Assembly: GCA_019912395.1 (NCBI GenBank)
Contig: JAIOIH010000020.1
Coordinates: forward strand, 1 to 35,783
Origin: Flavobacteriales bacterium
GTDB lineage: Bacteria; Bacteroidota; Bacteroidia; Flavobacteriales_F; PHOS-HE28
Direction: 5' to 3'
Length of the DNA: 35,783 nt
Position 1 is the first letter of the stretch, and the number at the start of each line of letters is the position of its first letter. A program made the position numbers and the translations under genes. A model generated the notes under the pieces. The model was given only the letters and a program-made list of their open reading frames with translations, did no database searches and was not told the DNA's origin. Shown here one piece after another: positions 28,499-35,783 of the stretch.

Positions 28499-28825
28499 GC
28501 ATTCCGCTGGATACATTTCCTCCCTTCGGAAAAGGAGAGAACTGGAGAGGGCTGGTTCATGCAACCACCCAACTCCTTCCCCATTGCTCCGATCAAGCTG
28601 CGACTGTGTATCTTGATCGCACCATGCCCGACGAAAAGTCCGTCGATCGGAAAACCGTGAACCTGGAAGCGTTTACTCGCGCAGGGTCTCCGCCTCGGGA
28701 CCCTGCGCCTTCCTTCAATACTCGCGCAGATTCCGCCTCGGGACCATGCGCCCCTTCAATACTCGCGCAGATTCCGCCTCGGAACCCTGCGCCTCCCCTT
28801 TCTTTACCGTATTAACCAGCTCGAA
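28499..28825. repeat. Intergenic region with three tandem REP-like units
   Basis: This 327-base stretch has no convincing gene. A hairpin near 28519-28538 (CTCCCTT..AAAAGGAG) may end the murF transcript. From 28674 three units of 45, 41 and about 41 bases follow each other, each beginning TACTCGCGCAG and containing CCGCCTCGG. The first unit holds a perfect stem, GCAGGGTC with GACCCTGC. The short ATG frame at 28624 (MPDEKSVDRKTVNLEAF) runs into the repeats and could be the 5' end of a gene cut by the insertion, but it is too short to identify. Confidence 0.7.
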
Positions 28826-29392
28826 ATGGCCGTACGCACTCGCCAACGCACTGACGGTGCCACCTTCTACTGCACCTTTACCTGTTGGCAGTGGCTACCC
28901 CTCATTGAGCGAACGGCCACACACGACCATATGTACAACTGGATGCATTGGGCCCATGCCAAAGGCTTCCGCATTTTCGGATATGTCATCATGCCCAACC
29001 ACGTCCATCTGGTCATACATGCACCCGAAGGGATGTCCATCAACAGGCTTCTGGCCAACGCGAAGAGATTCCTTGCTTATGAGATCCGCGACAGGCTGAT
29101 CCGGCAAGGTGAACTCGCTCTGCTCGAAATGCTGAAGGCCGCTGTGCGCCCTTGCGATGCGGCTCGCGGCCAAGAATACCGGGTATTCATGCCCTCGTCC
29201 GATATCCGCGAATGCTTTGATGAAGTCATGCTCCTACAGAAGCTGGACTACATCCACACCAACCCGGCAAAGGGGAAGTGGATGCTTGCGGAGAACTATC
29301 TGGACTATCCGCATTCCAGTGCGGGCTTTTATGAGCGGGGTGACCCCACTACGGCACCGGTTGTGCATTACCAAATGGAGTTGCGTACATGA
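28826..29392 (+). CDS. REP-associated tyrosine transposase (RAYT, Y1 family)
   Basis: The protein has 188 residues. The HUH-type signature is MPNHVHL (His59, His61), preceded by FGYVI. The candidate nucleophile is Tyr142 in [16 protein letters not shown], followed by the family motif [13 protein letters not shown]1 transposases of this type cut single-stranded DNA at REP hairpins. REP units stand in direct array upstream (28674-28800) and one inverted copy stands downstream (29411-29445), which together look like a complete REPtron. It has GC content close to the host, unlike the cassettes that follow. It appears to separate the downstream recombinase stub from its missing 5' part. Confidence 0.92.
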
Positions 29393-29410
29393 GCCACGAG
29401 GGAGCACAGG

Positions 29411-29445
29411 CCGCAGGGTCCCGAGGCGGAGACCCTGCGGGAGTA
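29411..29445 (-). repeat. Inverted REP-like unit downstream of the RAYT gene
   Basis: The reverse complement matches the first upstream unit (28674-28708) in 33 of 35 positions, and the central 26 bases are identical. The stem is GCAGGGTC with GACCCTGC. Opposite orientation on the two sides of the RAYT gene is the arrangement expected of a REPtron. Confidence 0.8.
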
Positions 29446-29689: not shown

Positions 29690-29732
29690 ATGGTGCAATA
29701 GAACCAACTCCAAGCACAAACCAAGTCCAGAA

Positions 29733-29786
29733 ATAAACACTATTATGGGTACAACCGACTAGTTGGCAGCAAGCATAACGGACACC
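29733..29786. repeat. attC-like imperfect palindrome, site 1
   Basis: The left arm AACACTATTATGGGTACAAC is followed within six bases by the right arm GTTGGCAGCAAGCATAACGG and then ACA. The arms are partly complementary (TTATG..AAC against GTT..CATAA). The left arm shares AACACT and GTACAAC with site 3; the right arm shares GTT..GC.A...AACGNACA with site 3. The site ends 18 bases before the first cassette gene. It could instead be the primary (attI-like) site beside the recombinase. Confidence 0.55.
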
Positions 29787-29804
29787 ACAACAAGACATTG
29801 AACT

Positions 29805-31340
29805 ATGAAAATTAAGACGATAAAAATTAAAAATTTCAGGAGTTACAAAGACGAAGTAGAAATCGAATTTGGTGACTTAACGGCATTTGTTGGAAAAAAT
29901 GATATTGGTAAATCAACAGTATTAGAAGCGTTAGACATTTTCTTCAACGACAGCAAAGGAGTTATCAAACTTGACAAAGACGATGTAAATAAACAAGCAC
30001 TCGCAGAAGGAGACACAGAAACGGTTATATCCGTTTGTTTTGAAGAGTTGCCGACCAGTATTGTAATTGACAGCACAAATCAAACTACACTTCAAGACGA
30101 ATACCTTTTAAACTCAAACAATCAACTTGAAATCATTAAAAAGTATTCAAACGGTGGTAAAGAAAAAGTCTTTGTAAAAGCAAACCATCCGACAAGTAAC
30201 AATTGCAAAGACCTTTTACAAAAGAAAAATACTGAACTTCAAAAAATCATAAAAGACCACACTGTTACGTGTAGCAATCAGACAATAAACGCAGTGATGA
30301 GAACTGCTATTTGGCAACATTTTAGTTCAGACCTTCAATTGCAAGAAATTGAAATTGATGTTACAAAAGGTGATACTAAATCAATTTGGGATAAACTTCA
30401 AGCATATCTACCTCTCTACTCTTTATTCCAATCTGACAGAAAAAATAGTGACGGAGACGATGAAGTTCAAGACCCACTAAAAGAAGCAGTTAAACAAATT
30501 CTAAATGATGCTGCACTTAAAGCAAAGTTTGACGAAATAGCAACAGAAGTAAAAACCAAATTGCAGGACGTTGCTTCAAGGACATTAGCAAAAATTCAGG
30601 AGATGAACCCTGAAATTGCGAGTAGCTTAAATCCTGTAATTCCAGCAACAGACAGTTTGAAGTGGACAGACGTTTTCAAAAGTGTTTCAATTGCCGGTGA
30701 CGAAAACATACCAATAAACAAAAGGGGTAGCGGAGTAAAAAGACTTATCCTTTTAAACTTTTTCAGAGCAGAAGCTGAAAGAAGAAAATTAGCTGAAAAC
30801 ATTCCAAGCATCATTTACGCTGTTGAAGAACCTGAAACATCACAACACACCGAACACCAAAAGAAACTTATAAAAGCATTTTTAGACTTATCGAACACAC
30901 CAAACACACAAGTAATAATTACTACTCATAGTGCTGCATTGGTAAAAGAGTTAGAGTTTCAGCATTTACGACTTGTAAAATCAGACAACTCAACCAAAAC
31001 CATTGAAAAGGTATTACCCAACCGACTTCCATACCCATCTTTGAATGAAGTAAATTTTCTTGCGTTTTCAGAGATTACAGAAGAATATCATAACGAGTTA
31101 TATGGTTTTATTGAGTTAGAAGGTGAAATGACAAACTACAGAAATGGAAAACCGACAATGCCATACAACAAACTAAAGAAAGACGGTGTAACAATAATTA
31201 ATGAAAATGTTGTGCTGACTGACTACATAAGACATCAAATTCATCACCCTGAAAACACACACAATACAAGATATACATTTCAACAGCTAAAGGACTCAGT
31301 GGACTTAATGAGAAACTTTATACAAACCTTGACACCGTGA
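29805..31340 (+). CDS. OLD/ABC-type ATPase with C-terminal HEPN-like motif
   Basis: The protein has 511 residues and is AT-rich, unlike the chromosomal genes before it. The RecF/SMC-like N-terminus (IKIKNFRSYKDEVEIEFGDLTAFVG in two parts) has Walker A GKNDIGKST at 30-38. The signature loop is RGSGVKR at 307-313, Walker B is YAVEEPE at 338-344, and the H-loop is THS with His375. The region between is short and lacks a long coiled coil. No TOPRIM motif follows. Instead the C-terminus holds RHQIHH (Arg476 to His481), an R-x4-H motif with a polar residue after Arg, as in HEPN ribonucleases. ATPase plus HEPN is the plan of anticodon nucleases such as PrrC and RloC, so a phage-triggered RNase is possible. 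This is inference from motifs. Confidence 0.75.
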   Translation: MKIKTIKIKNFRSYKDEVEIEFGDLTAFVGKNDIGKSTVLEALDIFFNDSKGVIKLDKDDVNKQALAEGDTETVISVCFEELPTSIVIDSTNQTTLQDEYLLNSNNQLEIIKKYSNGGKEKVFVKANHPTSNNCKDLLQKKNTELQKIIKDHTVTCSNQTINAVMRTAIWQHFSSDLQLQEIEIDVTKGDTKSIWDKLQAYLPLYSLFQSDRKNSDGDDEVQDPLKEAVKQILNDAALKAKFDEIATEVKTKLQDVASRTLAKIQEMNPEIASSLNPVIPATDSLKWTDVFKSVSIAGDENIPINKRGSGVKRLILLNFFRAEAERRKLAENIPSIIYAVEEPETSQHTEHQKKLIKAFLDLSNTPNTQVIITTHSAALVKELEFQHLRLVKSDNSTKTIEKVLPNRLPYPSLNEVNFLAFSEITEEYHNELYGFIELEGEMTNYRNGKPTMPYNKLKKDGVTIINENVVLTDYIRHQIHHPENTHNTRYTFQQLKDSVDLMRNFIQTLTP

Positions 31341-31355
31341 GAATGCCAGCTGCCA
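31339..31355. repeat. attC-like site 2, left arm (interrupted by the intron)
   Basis: GAGAATGCCAGCTGCCA starts in the stop codon of the ATPase gene. Joined to 33231 it continues ACAGGCGTTTGGC. The reverse complement of the right arm begins GAGAATATTGCGTACAACG and goes on to TTTTGGC, so both ends of the palindrome match. The intron sits inside this arm. Confidence 0.6.
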
Positions 31356-31439
31356 ATCGAGTAGGCGGCCCCGCCGCTAAATAGCGACGGGGTGCGCCTC
31401 TCACACCACTGTACGTACGGGCCTCGTATACAGCGGTTC
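31356..31439 (-). ncRNA. Intron domains V and VI
   Basis: Domain V lies at about 31404-31439 (minus strand GAACCGCTGTATACG paired with CGTACAGTGGTG) and overlaps the end of the maturase frame, which stops at the TGA within GTGGTGTGAGAGG. Domain VI is the hairpin at 31356-31401, with a GGCG/CGCC base, a CCCCG/CGGGG middle and a TATTTA loop. Confidence 0.85.
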
Positions 31440-32726
31440 GTTGAGATGTGGAGCGACTTTCCGGTAGTGAGAGAGCATGGCTTCGTAGCCGCGTTTGGCC
31501 AAGCGGGACAGGGTGATCGTGGAGTTCAGGATGGGACTTTGGGCGATGGCCCAGCCACCTTTGCGCGTTCGGCTCCAAGCATAGGCATGCTGCTGGTCAA
31601 CTCCCAAGCGGATCAGGTTCTTCCGTTTCCGTTCGGGCTTCTTCCAGTCCTTCCAGATGCAGTACCGCAAGCGGTTGCGCACCCAACCGTCCACATCGCG
31701 CAGTTTGCCCCACATACTTGCCATACGGAAGTAGTTGAGCCAGCCTCGTTGCACGCGCTTCAGGCGTCTGATGCGCTCGGCAAGCGGTAGCGGAGCGGTC
31801 TTGCGCGTAATGGCCTTCACCTTACGCTTCAACGTTTGCCACCCTTGGGCACCCACCACCAGTTGGTATTGCCCTTTCACACCCTTCTCATACGTAGGGA
31901 CGAACCCGTAGCCCAGCAGCTCGAACTGCACGGGTTTCCGGATGCCGCTCTTCGCACGGTTGATGGGCAGCTTCAACCGGTCCCGAAGGAACAGGTAGAT
32001 GCTATTGCCGATCTTCCGCGCTTGGCTCTTGTACTTCAGATAAATACTGAAGTCGTCCGCGTAGCGCACGTAGCGCAGCCCTTGCCGTTCCAGTTCACGG
32101 TCCAATTCGTGGAGCATGATGTTGGACAGCAGTGGGCTGAGCGGGCTGCCCTGCGGCACGCCTTTGCGTCGCTTCACCAGCTTCCCATCCACTTGGATAG
32201 GCGCACGGAGCCAGCGGCGTATCAGGAGCATCGTCAGGGGGCATTTCACCTTGCGATACAGTAGTTGCAGCAGTACACCATGATCCACTTCATCGAAGAA
32301 GCTTTTCAGATCGATATCAACGATGTGCTGATACCCTTCATTGATGTTTCGCTGCGCGCGCTGCACCGCCTGGTGGGCGCTCCGTCCGGGGCGGAAGCCA
32401 TAGCTGTGGGCCTTGAACTCCACCTCGAACAGGGGCATGACCACTTGGTGTACCGCCTGTTGCAGCAAGCGATCGGTAACCGTGGGGATACCCAGCAGGC
32501 GGGTACCCCCTTTGCTCTTGGGTATCGCTACCCCCAGAATAGCTTGCGGTAGGTAACTCCCCGCGCATACCGCCGTGGCCAGTCCTTCGCCATGCACCCT
32601 GAGGTGATCGGCAAGGGAACGTACGCCAAGCCCGTCCACTCCAGCGGCGCCCTTGTTGGACACCACCTGCTGACAGGCCGCCAGCATATTGCGTTTTGTT
32701 ACGATCCGTTCGACCATTCTGTTCAC
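31401..32726 (-). CDS. ltrA: Group II intron reverse transcriptase/maturase
   Basis: The protein has 441 residues and is intact. The RT blocks are in order: NKGAAGVDG, PTVTDRLLQQAV, SYGFRPGRSAHQAV, VDIDLKSFFDEVDH (catalytic Asp at 137-139), GVPQGSPLSPLLSN and RYADDFSIY (YADD at 222-225). The maturase X domain follows (RIRRLKRVQRGWLNYFRMASMWGKL in two parts). There is no C-terminal endonuclease domain, as expected for class C. The last codons read through domain V (NEPLYTRPVRTVV). It would help the intron splice and copy it into new sites. GC content resembles the chromosome, not the AT-rich cassettes around it. Confidence 0.96.
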   Translation of the reverse strand: MNRMVERIVTKRNMLAACQQVVSNKGAAGVDGLGVRSLADHLRVHGEGLATAVCAGSYLPQAILGVAIPKSKGGTRLLGIPTVTDRLLQQAVHQVVMPLFEVEFKAHSYGFRPGRSAHQAVQRAQRNINEGYQHIVDIDLKSFFDEVDHGVLLQLLYRKVKCPLTMLLIRRWLRAPIQVDGKLVKRRKGVPQGSPLSPLLSNIMLHELDRELERQGLRYVRYADDFSIYLKYKSQARKIGNSIYLFLRDRLKLPINRAKSGIRKPVQFELLGYGFVPTYEKGVKGQYQLVVGAQGWQTLKRKVKAITRKTAPLPLAERIRRLKRVQRGWLNYFRMASMWGKLRDVDGWVRNRLRYCIWKDWKKPERKRKNLIRLGVDQQHAYAWSRTRKGGWAIAQSPILNSTITLSRLAKRGYEAMLSHYRKVAPHLNEPLYTRPVRTVV

Positions 32727-33230
32727 TCCTTCTTTCCTTCCCTGTTCCGCCTATCGTGGGCTTCCCCACCTTGCGGCAGGCGATCCCAACGGCATTTGGA
32801 ACACCTCAACGTTCGGTCCTTCATGGGCTTGTGAGACCTCCGCCTTTATCCTCGCGGTGACGGCTCGTTTCCACCCACTACTACGACCTCTGCTGACCTC
32901 TCCACTAAGCCACACGTGGCCATGGAGATCTCCCCGGGTAAGGGCCATATCCTTCGGTCCATCGCCGCCGCATCTACCGCCCTGGGTTTGTTGCCTGCGG
33001 GCTTTGCTGCGTTGTGCCAGCTTACCCACCCGGGGCGGCCTCCGTATGCGGTTCCTGTTCGTCGGTACGGACCTTTGCAGTCGCGCTTCCTTCAGTGCAG
33101 GGGTCGCCCCCTACCACCTTGCGCCTTGCTGACCGGCTTCGACAACTCGCCGGTAAGGGACTTGCACCCTCTGGATATTCAAAGAACGATGTTACCTTGC
33201 GGTAGACTTCTTGACCCATGCTGGGCACAC
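32727..33230 (-). ncRNA. Intron 5' region, ribozyme domains I to IV
   Basis: This 504-base stretch before the maturase start has no gene of its own. It starts with the conserved 5' end of the intron and contains AGAGGGTGCAAGTCCCTTAC and TTACCCGGGGAGATCTCC, both matching conserved domain I-III segments I know from class C introns. The plus-strand reading frame that crosses it is incidental. Confidence 0.8.
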
Positions 33231-33368
33231 ACAGGCGTTTGGCAAAAGTGGCGGTTCAGTGCTCCGCAGACACATTTGTGGTTAATCAAAGTTTGGTTCT
33301 CCGCATCAATATTTGTGGTGAAAATCGCCACCTTCGCCAAGCGCCAAAACGTTGTACGCAATATTCTC
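33231..33368. repeat. attC-like site 2, central part and right arm
   Basis: With the left arm at 31339-31355 removed from it by the intron, this completes an imperfect palindrome of about 155 bases. AAGTGGCG (33246-33253) pairs with CGCCACCTT (33326-33334); GGCGTTTGGC pairs imperfectly with GCCAAGCGCC; the right arm is GTTGTACGCAATATTCTC, followed by GAACA as at other sites. It ends at the next gene's start codon. Confidence 0.6.
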
Positions 33369-34127
33369 ATGAACACCATCCGACTTTTTACAATATTATT
33401 ACTGTTAAAGGCTCAAACTACTTACAGCCAACCTACAAATTCAGACTCTTTGCTCAACAATTTTAGAAAAGACATCGAAATTGAGCAAAGTGAGAATGCA
33501 GGTGCAGTTGGGTTGGACAATGAAACGAAGATTTCTTATTATTTGTTGATTAGCAGTTGTTCAGTTGAAGACTTATTGAAATATACAAATGATAGCAACC
33601 CTTTTGTACGCTCATATGTATTTGCAGGCTTGCTCCGAAAAGAGATAAGTAAGGATAAGCTCTTACAAGTATTAGACAGACATAAAAATGATACGGCAAA
33701 ATTTACAAGTAAAGGAGTAGACGTAGCCGTAGAATGGACAGTAAAGGAGTTTATGGAAGCAGGTTGGAGACTGAAGCTTTCTAATAAATTGCCTGACATT
33801 GATTATAACAAGGAACTTGAAAGACTAAGAAGCCGACCCGGAATAGAACTGAAAATAAACGGTATCAGCCACGGACTAATTGACAAAAAGGAATTATTGA
33901 ATATTGACAATTTAATTCTCGCCGACAAAGAATTTAGAGTAGTATCGTTCAATTTATTTGTAGCGGAAAAAGAAATGAAAAGTACAAATTGTACCTTAAC
34001 AGTTGAAATGAAGCAAATGATTGAAAGATTGGAGCCTGGAGAGTTTATTGCTTTTGACAATATCAAAGTGGTAGGAAGCGACAATATGGTCAGACGGATT
34101 GCTTCGTTGTCATTAAAGATTAAGTAA
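33369..34127 (+). CDS. Secreted protein with HEAT-like segment and GldM-C-like domain (cassette gene)
   Basis: The ATG at 33369, just after the attC-like right arm, gives 252 residues; a longer in-frame start lies inside the intron and is rejected. A signal peptide is visible (MNTIRLFTILLLLKAQTTYSQ). The segment LLKYTNDSNPFVRSYVFAGLLRK resembles one HEAT repeat. The last 95 residues (from IELKINGISHG through FRVVSFNLFVAEKEM to LEPGEFIAFDNIKVVGSDN) resemble the C-terminal beta-domain of GldM/PorM-like proteins. It would act in the periplasm or be exported; the function is unknown. It is AT-rich like the other cassettes. Confidence 0.75.
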   Translation: MNTIRLFTILLLLKAQTTYSQPTNSDSLLNNFRKDIEIEQSENAGAVGLDNETKISYYLLISSCSVEDLLKYTNDSNPFVRSYVFAGLLRKEISKDKLLQVLDRHKNDTAKFTSKGVDVAVEWTVKEFMEAGWRLKLSNKLPDIDYNKELERLRSRPGIELKINGISHGLIDKKELLNIDNLILADKEFRVVSFNLFVAEKEMKSTNCTLTVEMKQMIERLEPGEFIAFDNIKVVGSDNMVRRIASLSLKIK

Positions 34128-34337
34128 CACTGGCGTACAACATCGGCTTTAAGCACTTCAGCAGCACCGGCATAACCCTACCGCCCATGCACAACCGAAG
34201 CCCGCACACATGGAAGCCAGCCCCGACCCTACCGCCCCACTGCTGCTGAAAGCCGGTGAAGGCCGGACCTACCGTTGCGGGACGCGAAAGGCGGCCTGCG
34301 GCAAGCGCAGGCCCGTTATAGGCTATGTTAAACGACA
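34124..34337. repeat. attC-like imperfect palindrome, site 3 (intact)
   Basis: The left arm TAACACTGGCGTACAACATC starts at the stop codon of the upstream gene. The right arm is GTTATAGGCTATGTTAAACG (34315-34334), followed by ACA; it contains GTTAAAC, which fits the GTTRRRY core of integron sites. The reverse complement of the right arm (TAACATAGCCTATAAC) aligns with the left arm. Inside lie further stems: TTCAGCAG with CTGCTGAA, and GGCCTGCG with CGCAGGCC (34293-34313). The GC-rich centre contrasts with the AT-rich genes on both sides. At about 214 bases it is longer than most attC sites. Confidence 0.65.
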
Positions 34338-34349
34338 GACTACCAACAT

Positions 34350-35108
34350 ATGGAAACAATTAAAATAGACAGTCTAGAAAAGTTAATTGAGTTGGTGACA
34401 ACCGGAGAATTTGGTTGCGGACACGTTGTTTTTCGTGGCGTGACTGACACTAAAAATCATAAACTAATTCCTTCTGTTGGACGAATAGACGAATCAATTT
34501 TATGCGGACTATCAATCGCTGAATACGAACGAGAAACCCTAAATAGGTTTAAGTTGAGAGCAAACTCGGAGATTACCCCGCAACCAAAAGACGATTGGGA
34601 ATGGCTTGCATTAGCACAACACCACGGCTTGCCGACAAGACTTCTTGACTGGACTTCAAGCCCGTTAATAGCTTTGTATTTTGCGACCAAACCTGATATT
34701 CAAAATGACGGTAGCTTAAAAAAGTGCAATAACAATGGCGGAGCAATTTATGCATTTCATACTTGTAGTTATTTGGACACAAGTTGTTTGGTTCCACCGA
34801 CAGACTTCACTGAGTTCGGACTTTTTTACCCGCCACACATTACAAGAAGAATAACTGGACAGTTTGGACTTTTTTCAATTCAAGCCGACCCTACTAAAGA
34901 ACTAAATGAAGAGATTAACGAGAACGAAGGAAACTGGATAAAGAAAATTGAATTTAGCTGCGAGACAGCTCAACAAATTCAAAAACAACTTTACCTATTA
35001 GGTATTAGACACGAAACGGTATTCCCAGACCTTGACGGATTTACATTTGACTTGAAAGTAAAATTTAATGTTACGAGTTGCCATACTGTAAAGAACTTAT
35101 GTTGGTAG
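34350..35108 (+). CDS. FRG-domain protein (cassette gene)
   Basis: The protein has 252 residues. The defining motif is FRG at 28-30 (HVVFRGVTD). The second family motif, WLALAQHHGLPTRLLDWT (84-102 region), is followed by SSPLIALYFA. FRG domains are found in many phage, plasmid and integron-borne proteins; no biochemical role is firmly established in my knowledge. There is no signal peptide or membrane helix, so it is probably cytoplasmic. It is AT-rich and starts 12 bases after the right arm of site 3, as cassette genes do. It is separated from the next gene by only 35 bases. Confidence 0.9.
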   Translation: METIKIDSLEKLIELVTTGEFGCGHVVFRGVTDTKNHKLIPSVGRIDESILCGLSIAEYERETLNRFKLRANSEITPQPKDDWEWLALAQHHGLPTRLLDWTSSPLIALYFATKPDIQNDGSLKKCNNNGGAIYAFHTCSYLDTSCLVPPTDFTEFGLFYPPHITRRITGQFGLFSIQADPTKELNEEINENEGNWIKKIEFSCETAQQIQKQLYLLGIRHETVFPDLDGFTFDLKVKFNVTSCHTVKNLCW

Positions 35109-35114
35109 AGAGAA

Positions 35115-35135
35115 GAAACACAGCTTGACAACGAT
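35115..35135. repeat. Reduced attC-like arm, site 4
   Basis: GAAACACAGCTTGACAACG follows the FRG stop codon. Its first ten bases are identical to those after the next gene's stop (35629-35638). The rest of a palindrome is absent; the next gene starts nine bases later. It could be a site that lost its centre and right arm, fusing two cassettes into one. Confidence 0.4.
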
Positions 35136-35143
35136 TAAAAATT

Positions 35144-35629
35144 ATGGAAATATTTGAATTTGAAATTCCTGCCCACACAACAAGACGAGAATGGGCTGTT
35201 TATGTAATAGTGGCACAACAAAACACCACTGACAACAAAATATTTTATGTTGGAAAGGTTGGCGACAACAGGGACGGATGTAATCCAATAATTTCTAGAA
35301 TTGGGAATCATTTTTCTCATAACAAAATTCATTCTCAATTGCGGAATAAAATATCAGAAACGACTTTGTTTAACTACAAGGTTTTTTACGCAACATTTGG
35401 ACAATATAACATTGAAACTCAAAATACGGACAAAGCAAAAGTGAATGAACTTGAAAGACAACTAAACCGTTATATTCAACAAAATTTACTAACCTTGGAC
35501 AACATACAATTTTTAAATCCATATAAAGCAGTTGGAGTAAGCAAGAAAAAGGAAAATGACAGACAACAGCTACTAACTGAAGACGAACGAAAACAACTTA
35601 AAGAACTTGCGGACAGAGCAACAGCATAG
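35144..35629 (+). CDS. GIY-YIG-like nuclease domain protein (cassette gene)
   Basis: The protein has 161 residues. The N-terminal half has the GIY-YIG pattern: WAVYVIV (Tyr20), an 11-residue gap, then IFYVGKVG (Tyr35, Gly37), a following Arg52 in SRIGNHF and a candidate metal-binding Glu102 or Glu104 in NELERQLN. The C-terminal part is a charged helix (QQLLTEDERKQLKELADRA). GIY-YIG domains cut DNA in homing endonucleases, repair enzymes and restriction systems. Here the first motif is VYV rather than GIY, so activity is uncertain. It lies closely after the FRG gene and may be co-transcribed or form one two-gene cassette with it. Confidence 0.65.
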   Translation: MEIFEFEIPAHTTRREWAVYVIVAQQNTTDNKIFYVGKVGDNRDGCNPIISRIGNHFSHNKIHSQLRNKISETTLFNYKVFYATFGQYNIETQNTDKAKVNELERQLNRYIQQNLLTLDNIQFLNPYKAVGVSKKKENDRQQLLTEDERKQLKELADRATA

Positions 35630-35643
35630 AAACACAGCCTATA
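35629..35643. repeat. attC-like site 5, left arm (interrupted by the second intron)
   Basis: GAAACACAGCCTATA overlaps the stop codon of the GIY-YIG-like gene and runs directly into the intron end. It matches the reverse complement of the right arm of site 3 (AACATAGCCTATAAC). The missing AAC would lie beyond the intron, outside the window. Confidence 0.55.
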
Positions 35644-35783
35644 ATCGAGTAGGCGGCCCCGCCGCTAAATAGCGACGGGGTGCGCCTCTCACACCACTGT
35701 ACGTACGGGCCTCGTATACAGCGGTTCGTTGAGATGTGGAGCGACTTTCCGGTAGTGATCGAGCAAGGCTTCGTAGCCGCGTT
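35644..35783 (-). mobile_element. Second class C group II intron, 3' end only (partial)
   Basis: These 140 bases match 31356-31495 at 137 positions without gaps, in the same orientation. They contain domain VI, domain V and the end of the maturase gene. The three differences all fall in the maturase codons, so this is a close but separate copy. Both copies have T as the first base of the 3' exon. The rest lies outside the window. Confidence 0.92.
35689..35783 (-). CDS. ltrA: Group II intron reverse transcriptase/maturase, C-terminus (partial)
   Basis: The minus strand encodes RGYEALLDHYRKVAPHLN followed by the same tail as the first copy and a TGA stop. Relative to the first maturase there are two amino-acid changes (Met to Leu and Ser to Asp), caused by three base changes. 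Whether the rest is intact cannot be seen. Confidence 0.85.
   Translation of the reverse strand, partial: RGYEALLDHYRKVAPHLNEPLYTRPVRTVV

Follow-up and report, generated by a model that had tools for sequence, protein, structure and literature searches.

What moves the genes at the end of a Bacteroidota contig, where four AT-rich genes of unrelated type stand among imperfect palindromes behind a broken tyrosine recombinase gene? The question is raised by contig JAIOIH010000020.1 of a Flavobacteriales bacterium (assembly GCA_019912395.1), whose 35,783 nt were analysed as a whole and are referred to here as the window; the system concerned occupies the last 7 kb of the contig, on the plus strand. 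A reading made from the sequence alone had taken this region for an integron-like cassette array with atypical attC sites. Very probably the window carries a decayed copy of an integron-like system by which Bacteroidota capture cassettes; it contains one attI, three cassettes with four genes between them, and three attC sites, of which one is split by an intron, one is intact and one is cut by an intron at the contig end. In the system, attI lies approximately 35-250 bases past the stop codon of the integrase gene and is followed by cassettes that share the direction of this gene, an attC hairpin closing each of them. In the mechanism proposed, the integrase would cut attC between G and TT on its folded bottom strand; the freed cassette would form a circle that brings its two arms together, and this circle would be inserted at attI or at another attC. 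No description of such a system was found in the open-access literature, a scope that leaves aside preprints, and it may be in print elsewhere.

Cassette arms and junctions at the GTT core

Release of a cassette as a circle, with the break between G and TT, requires that its start and end arms form one hairpin and, judging from the sequences, they do: the complementarity between cassette start and cassette end extends over 10 bp, an A·C mismatch and a further 3 bp. For counting, an arm rule was used that demands GTT plus five exact pairs, A in the right arm and C in the left arm at position 11, and at least four of the five pairs at positions 9, 10, 12, 13, and 14. Applied to 66 integrase loci, the rule returned 161 pairs in 51 loci (a few of the pairs share an arm), compared with 2 in the reversed and 1 in the complemented sequence; the reverse strand (2 pairs) probes only the orientation of the A/C position in this test, and a reverse-complement 'control' of the pair test was discarded as not independent, since a pair read backwards is a pair again. 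When positions 9-11 were left unconstrained, 143 of 162 pairs kept the A/C at position 11 and only 5% were complementary there. Loci, contigs, and genomes are cited below by our own L, C, and G numbers. The 66 loci comprise 51 from a scan of the phylum (80 loci minus L073, whose match reaches the contig end, leave 79, and 28 with less than 700 bases downstream were dropped) and 15 from genome searches and the window. Thirteen of the 20 genome-search stretches were counted (L038-L044, L046, L048, L051, L053, L054, and L056), and seven were left out for a short downstream stretch or for want of a readable integrase (L037, L045, L047, L049, L050, L052, and L055).

The 51 phylum-scan loci allow further comparisons. 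An arm match of 9 bases was found in 38 of them, where 200 shuffles gave a mean of 5.7 and a maximum of 11, and by this locus count GTT was the best of all 64 triplets. When arms were compared with the arrays of other loci, each of them matched over at least 9 bases in 0 to 6 of the 15-16 loci; this control is weaker, since different loci can have the same arm type; in a smaller initial test, the own arm was matched over at least 9 bases in 9 of 15 loci, with cross-locus matches of up to 10. Downstream of the integrase, 134 non-overlapping cassettes were found in 40 of the 51 loci (309 kb), compared with 6 pairs upstream of it on both strands together (673 kb). The longest open reading frame (ORF) of these cassettes lies forward in 113 and in reverse in 6 and is shorter than 50 aa in 15; the median length from start arm to end arm is 681 bases, and in 27 loci the first cassette begins no more than 260 bases from the integrase stop. 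Some palindromes do stand directly behind genes, and genes of the RAYT type, associated with repetitive extragenic palindromic (REP) sequences, are present together with their repeats, so that the palindromes might be taken for ordinary terminators or REP-like repeats whose arms match by chance. This is refuted by the 161 pairs against 2 and 1 in the controls; the shuffles, the A/C at position 11, and the upstream and downstream counts likewise rule out chance and terminators, and the explanation can be set aside with near certainty.

The arms also differ from those of canonical integrons. The 7-bp R box (GTTRRRY / RYYYAAC) was not found in them: they run over 10 bp, A·C, and 3 bp, with positions 5-7 free, as in GTTGTGTGCA. 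At twelve canonical-IntI loci of the same phylum (217 kb), the arm rule gave 0 pairs on one strand and 3 on the other, compared with 0 and 2 in the controls, and complementarity there drops after 7 bases.

Comparisons between related genomes place the junctions at the core. Contig C67 of the window's own genome (locus L034) carries an unbroken integrase gene of 392 codons; 97 bases past its stop codon stands an attI of the same type as in the window (...GTACAACCGACTAGTT), and another cassette comes next. The same ...GTACAACCGACTAGTT stands 3' of the integrase in L045 (genome G022), which agrees with L034 in all of the first 97 bases behind the stop codon and in which a different cassette then starts at the same base. 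Loci L050 and L051, with another attI, are 99% identical up to the core and then diverge over the short stretch available, and the reverse case is provided by L070 and L071, where one cassette start lies behind two different attI flanks. That identical attI sequences give way to different cassettes at the core GTT suggests that attI has been used for insertion. Similarly, the final 31 bases of the second attC of the window, which end with the core G, have ten further copies in the genus, each with at most 1 mismatch; the shared half breaks at the core G in all 11 places, TT comes next in 10 of the 11, and the sequences then diverge. Breakpoints at the GTT core, for which the sequence-only reading had proposed to look, are thus seen in L034/L045, in L050/L051, and at the 11 places of this attC half, and they join the arm pairs (161, from 51 of the 66 loci) and the cassette arrays in supporting its proposal of an integron architecture in Bacteroidota.

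Among 45 genomes of the genus, cassettes 1 and 3 of the window were found as DNA only in the genome of the window itself and are absent from the other 44. Only the attC end of cassette 2 occurs elsewhere, in 10 of the 44 genomes; the query for this cassette stopped at the core, and its breakpoint rests on the comparison of the 31-base attC half and not on that search. In five arrays (L039, L042, L043, L044, and L177), the last attC is followed by a short gene-less palindrome, GTTRNNNGCCAT...AAC, and then by GAATGACCAC; the palindrome may be a signal that terminates the array, or else a minimal cassette.

An integrase without the I2 region

Compared with the Vibrio integrase structure 2a3v, the integrases of this system form two aligned blocks, between which 19 residues lie here and 62 in VchIntIA; approximately 42 residues around the I2 helix are missing in all 36 rows compared. 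Accordingly spaced motifs were found throughout: the distance from KDR to HxLRHS is 58-59 residues in 36 of 36 I2-less rows, 100 in 13 of 13 IntI rows, 62-66 in four Xer rows, and 60-62 in two XerA rows, and a pattern match on the 79 phylum-scan loci gave 58-59 in 74, with 5 not measured. The missing stretch has been described as an additional domain that marks IntI (passages in PMC9668308 and PMC7790495), and in the latter the I2 helix is presented as the innovation that made a Xer-like recombinase an integron integrase and is said to be absent from any other protein. Parts of a 2021 survey report that the IntI insertion is not fully conserved within an integron-like subgroup (PMC8138268). 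None of 58 relatives scored above the cut-off of the integron integrase model TIGR02249 (265 bits), four members reaching 196 to 212 bits. The integrase of the window's genome is the one at 212 bits, and it exceeds the cut-off of NF040815 (232 bits, cut-off 220), a model that NCBI names 'site-specific tyrosine recombinase/integron integrase'. TIGR02249 itself is exceeded in 57 of 198 genomes of the phylum, G093 being the only one among the same-class genomes listed.

The closest structural match is the archaeal XerA 4a8e (Z 24.0), followed by the integron integrase 2a3v (Z 21.9); the structure alignment numbers 40, L090 and L130 having been excluded for stop codons. An unrooted tree of 55 rows, which includes 30 of the 79 phylum-scan loci, places IntI and the I2-less proteins together on one side and the Xer and XerA rows (four and two) on the other (100/98), with the IntI rows as one group (100/100). 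The neighbouring positions of IntI and the I2-less clade would also fit a lineage that once had I2 and lost it, making it a derived IntI branch rather than an older or parallel one, and counts on an unrooted tree cannot separate loss from gain. Such a loss is nevertheless somewhat unlikely, given that IntI forms a tight group (100/100) with the I2-less rows on the other side (86/87) and with Xer and XerA, also devoid of I2, outside. The genus of the window has, in addition, a second and more distant integrase type (L047, L049, L050, L051, and L056), in which TLLYAEVT or LIYAQVT replaces TEIYTHVS; it has its own attI, and cassettes follow it in L056.

All 16 aligned integrases carry a conserved stretch of approximately 70 residues ahead of the core-binding domain, which AlphaFold models with confidence as an N-terminal domain. 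The five best rows of a structural comparison were all XPB N-terminal regions (Z 6.4-7.2), with the HARP domain of SMARCAL1 lower (Z 3.5), values below 8 being such that they may mean little. Weak Pfam matches were to HARP in 5 of 36 members (best E 0.0022) and to DUF5710 in 10 of 36, and Foldseek returned no match for this domain at E 0.001. XPB and HARP domains read distorted DNA. The XPB/HARP-like N-terminal domain may stand in for I2, and our best guess is that folded DNA is read without I2 by the core together with this domain.

Predicted folds of attC sites, introns and the window locus

Further copies of the palindrome beside unrelated genes, as anticipated by the sequence-only reading, amount to 72 linked attC sites. 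Their inner length varies from 43 to 245 bases and is mostly 117-121. When modelled in silico as in the circle, the bottom strand was the more stable in 69 of 71 sites, by a mean of 4.5 kcal/mol; it was favoured by the arms alone in 69 of the 71 and by the inner part in 56, and the A·C of the attC top strand corresponds to T·G pairing in the bottom one. In folds of 53 sites of modal length, the bottom strand mostly leaves about 4 bases unpaired on the 5' side, between the core and the inner helix. Canonical attC carries an extrahelical base in its L helices; no extrahelical base common to the L helices was found in these 53 folds, the folds of in-array sites being noisy.

In the window, the first attC is split by a group II intron of 1,875 bases, and the third is interrupted by a second copy, of which only the 3' end lies within the contig (Table 1). 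An Rfam scan of the window returned only the intron and no attC family. Contigs C67, C22, and C45 of the same genome also start or stop inside the intron, and the assembly has therefore truncated the arrays. Eight distinct intron 3' junctions all lie after ...YA of an attC-type left arm, on the bottom strand, and the 5' exons end in CTGT. Group IIC-attC introns are placed in the same way, with target TTGT/T (described in part of PMC7923331), and the present introns resemble them in running against the direction of the cassettes and in being seated in the left arm of attC, at GT/T on the bottom strand; they differ in that their host sites are attC of the Bacteroidota type. The maturase is 63-69% identical to those of Bacteroidota plasmids and at most 44% identical to the others listed by tblastn. 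A 5' part of the intron also lies at the end of contig C45 (L036:9400-9539), behind sequence that is not obviously attC.

An alternative is Xer-like recombination of double strands, in which attI and attC would serve as duplexes with half-sites in inverted orientation (AAC, a few bases, GTT) and no folding of the palindromes as single strands would be needed. Inverted half-sites are visible by eye in attI, Xer-type spacing is kept in the integrase (58-59 residues, compared with 60-66 in Xer and XerA and 100 in IntI), and XerA ranks above the integron integrase structurally. The duplex reading is opposed by long inner hairpins that are kept while their middle varies, by a mismatch on the top strand that becomes T·G on the bottom strand, with the better bottom fold in 69 of 71 sites, and by IIC-type introns that sit in the bottom strand, and we consider duplex recombination unlikely.

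A broken integrase such as that of the window, together with near-identical attC halves that recur, could alternatively mean that the integrases are relics or have another role and that the arrays are shuffled by homologous recombination between attC hairpins or by introns; IIC-attC introns have been proposed to help to build cassettes (in the portion of PMC7923331 that treats them). Against this stand intact and diverse integrases at the head of arrays across the phylum, the many arrays with arm pairs and no intron junction, and the consideration that recombination between attC hairpins would not keep the arms of one cassette matched over hundreds of bases. This explanation is very improbable.

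Capture of cassettes through folded attC sites by an integrase stays the preferred reading, and several points weigh against it. The strand preference is the outcome of a fold calculation. No pair was found by the arm rule in 15 of the 66 loci and no cassette in 11 of the 51, and arm pairing in the window's cassette 2 extends over no more than 9 bases. The I2-less group has a support of only 86/87, in a tree with few other recombinase families, and I2 is treated as enabling single-strand recombination in work on IntI1 (the relevant passages of PMC7790495).

Table 1. Positions of the integron-like system in the window, with tet(X) genes bounded by cassette arms in other records
Feature	Position	Strand	Basis or remark
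Integrase N-terminus remnant (MPDEKSVDRKTVNLEA)	28624..28671	+	16 residues, as at the start of the intact L046 integrase; 2 differences from L034
REP-associated (RAYT-like) Y1 transposase gene	28826..29392	+	Pfam Y1_Tnp 27.7 bits (cut-off 23)
Integrase C-terminal remnant including stop codon	29448..29663	+	TIGR02249 positions 245-315; PF00589 positions 102-170
attI side	29700..29764	+	...GTACAACCGACTAGTT; core GTT 29762-29764; probable crossover between G and TT
Cassette 1 including intron	29763..33351	+	gene 29805-31340, AriA-like AAA ATPase; PF13175 302 bits; PADLOC AriA E 1.6e-78
attC 1 left arm, before intron	31342..31355	+	intron border comparison
Group II intron, 1,875 bases, splits attC 1	31356..33230	-	RF02001 120 bits; opposite to cassette genes
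Intron maturase ORF	31401-32726	-	TIGR04416 367 bits
Intron RNA core	32943-33113	-	RF02001
attC 1 remainder	33231..33364	+	core GTT 33351-33353
Cassette 2	33352..34315	+	gene 33369-34127, C-terminal GldM-like domain (PF12080 28 bits)
attC 2, intact	34128..34328	+	core GTT 34315-34317
Cassette 3 up to intron	34316..35643	+	genes 34350-35108 (FRG domain) and 35144-35629 (no family)
attC 3 left arm	35630..35643	+	intron border comparison
Second intron copy, 3' end, cuts attC 3, runs off contig	35644..35783	-	98% identical to first copy; same junction
tet(X) genes with cassette arms	L156:157-1364, L155:4008-5215, L150:6865-8074, L149:3804-5013, L157:2994-4175		perfect in Empedobacter, imperfect or intron-cut in others

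The four AT-rich plus-strand genes and the tyrosine recombinase stub just upstream, both named in the sequence-only reading, are borne out; the genes have 34-39% GC, compared with 60% for window bases 1-28600. Imperfect palindromes with GTT/AAC arms are present as it had described, with some changes of assignment. The first (29733-29790) belongs to the attI side and is not an attC; the second is an attC, although a single site split by the intron, which had been missed; and the last is an attC cut by the second intron copy. The idea that each gene has its own palindrome does not hold, given that the third and fourth genes share one cassette with no palindrome between them. Cassette 1 starts with GTTGGCAGCAAGCA and ends with TGCCAGCTGCCA, with AC behind the intron, and its arms pair over 9 bases, the A·C at position 11 and 3 more bases after the intron flanks are joined. 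Cassette 3 starts with GTTATAGGCTATGT, and its arms pair over 10 bp, A·C, and 3 bp if the two bases behind the intron, beyond the contig, are AC. The cassettes of L034 and L035 fit the arm rule when treated in the same way as those of the window.

The integrase of the window is a remnant, the intact copy being that on C67; the window array would consequently be mobile only through this copy. The RAYT-like gene occupies the place expected for the middle of the integrase gene and scores 61 bits against NF047646, below the cut-off of 80. It is bordered by inverted CGCAGGGTC/GACCCTGCG repeats (window 28680-29439), and stands where integrase residues ~17-320 of 392 would be expected. The AriA-like ATPase of cassette 1 is of the PARIS type, with no AriB gene in the same cassette, and the FRG-domain gene of cassette 3 matches PF08867 at 95 bits and PADLOC PDC-S15 at 231 bits. 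Anti-phage models were matched by three of the five cassette proteins of this genome that were scanned (AriA, PDC-S15, and Orf5/HEC-06).

Spread, tet(X) and relation to known systems

A scan of one genome per species matched at least 581 stretches, 561 of which encode relatives. Among the 80 loci kept, 72 lie in records named Bacteroidota and 8 in others or in unassigned ones; named carriers include Flavobacterium, Winogradskyella, Arenibacter, Gillisia, Rufibacter, and Salegentibacter. Seven of the 80 (L083, L085, L105, L110, L124, L134, and L145) are in records named for other phyla or their members (Armatimonadetes, Rhodobacteraceae, Nitrospirae, Rickettsiales, and WOR-3), which may reflect either transfer or misbinned metagenome contigs. 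By the arm rule, L136 (from the cultured carrier Flavobacterium terrisoli), L137, and L144 hold 8 to 11 cassettes each, and under a slightly looser rule plasmid members in Chryseobacterium and Rufibacter show 3 and 4 arm pairs.

Six tet(X) records were read for arms of the same type. The 'TnpF/XerD' upstream of the Acinetobacter tet(X3) is an N-truncated member of the clade, with 54% identity over residues 163-392. On an Empedobacter plasmid, the tet(X) unit starts with GTTATGTGCCATTT and ends with AAACGGCACATAAC, with all 13 pairs and the A·C position in place; one arm pair differs in Bacteroides fragilis, and the arms of two tet(X3) records differ at positions 5-7. In the one Escherichia coli tet(X4) record read, this left arm is again present and is interrupted, at an identical base, by the end of an intron of the same kind; no matching start arm was found in this record, where estT and the beginning of tet(X4) overlap and no attC separates the two genes. 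No arms were found in the 120 bases before or the 130 after the gene in L158, which carries tet(X5)/tet(X6). From these sequences, tet(X) looks like a cassette of the Bacteroidota integron-like system. Flavobacteriaceae have been named as the likely source of tet(X), with no transfer route demonstrated in the text available of PMC7494873, and a word search of its main text found none of the words cassette, integron, and attC. The xerD/tpnF-tet(X3) module of Acinetobacter resembles the present system in its clade-member integrase and in a tet(X) bounded by arms of this type, and differs in being described as moving with ISCR2 (part of PMC8635130). Resistance genes of Bacteroidota are also tabulated beside 'XerD' in PMC11194056.

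Canonical IntI integrons, whether class 1, of Vibrio, or otherwise chromosomal, share with this system an attI beside a tyrosine integrase and tandem attC cassettes, a probable crossover between G and TT, and a neighbouring position in the tree; a bottom-strand attC fold like theirs is predicted here. Unlike them, the integrases here have no I2 region and in many cases carry an extra N-terminal domain, the arms consist of 10 bp, A·C, and 3 bp instead of a 7-bp GTTRRRY box, and attI is placed next to the 3' end of the integrase gene, whose direction the array shares. With XerA and XerC/XerD, the integrases share core and catalytic domains at Xer-type spacing without I2; they differ from these in heading a cassette array, in forming a separate branch of the tree, and in the extra N-terminal domain. 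Members without the insertion in the integron-like simple tyrosine recombinase subgroup are not linked to cassette arrays in the portion of PMC8138268 that describes them. The system, as we interpret it, works like an integron but is not classed as an IntI integron, because the I2 domain and the 7-bp box were looked for and neither was found. The I2-less integrase clade, arms longer than canonical R boxes, introns within the sites, and tet(X) with the same arms all go beyond what the sequence-only reading had described.

We tentatively suggest, as a real possibility that falls short of an expectation, that a second integron branch extends across Bacteroidota, capturing cassettes through folded attC with integrases that never had I2 and that use an XPB/HARP-like DNA-structure domain to read the sites instead; this branch may keep the state that preceded I2, and would have packaged mobile tet(X). 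With a sister clade that lacks I2 and yet heads cassette arrays of intact appearance, the claim that I2 was the decisive innovation becomes directly testable, and the system offers an origin for mobile tet(X). For the Bacteroidetes proper, IntegronFinder 2.0 has reported a complete integron in Salinibacter (as given in part of PMC9024848), and for this reason a large pool of cassettes, consisting in part of anti-phage genes, may have been overlooked.

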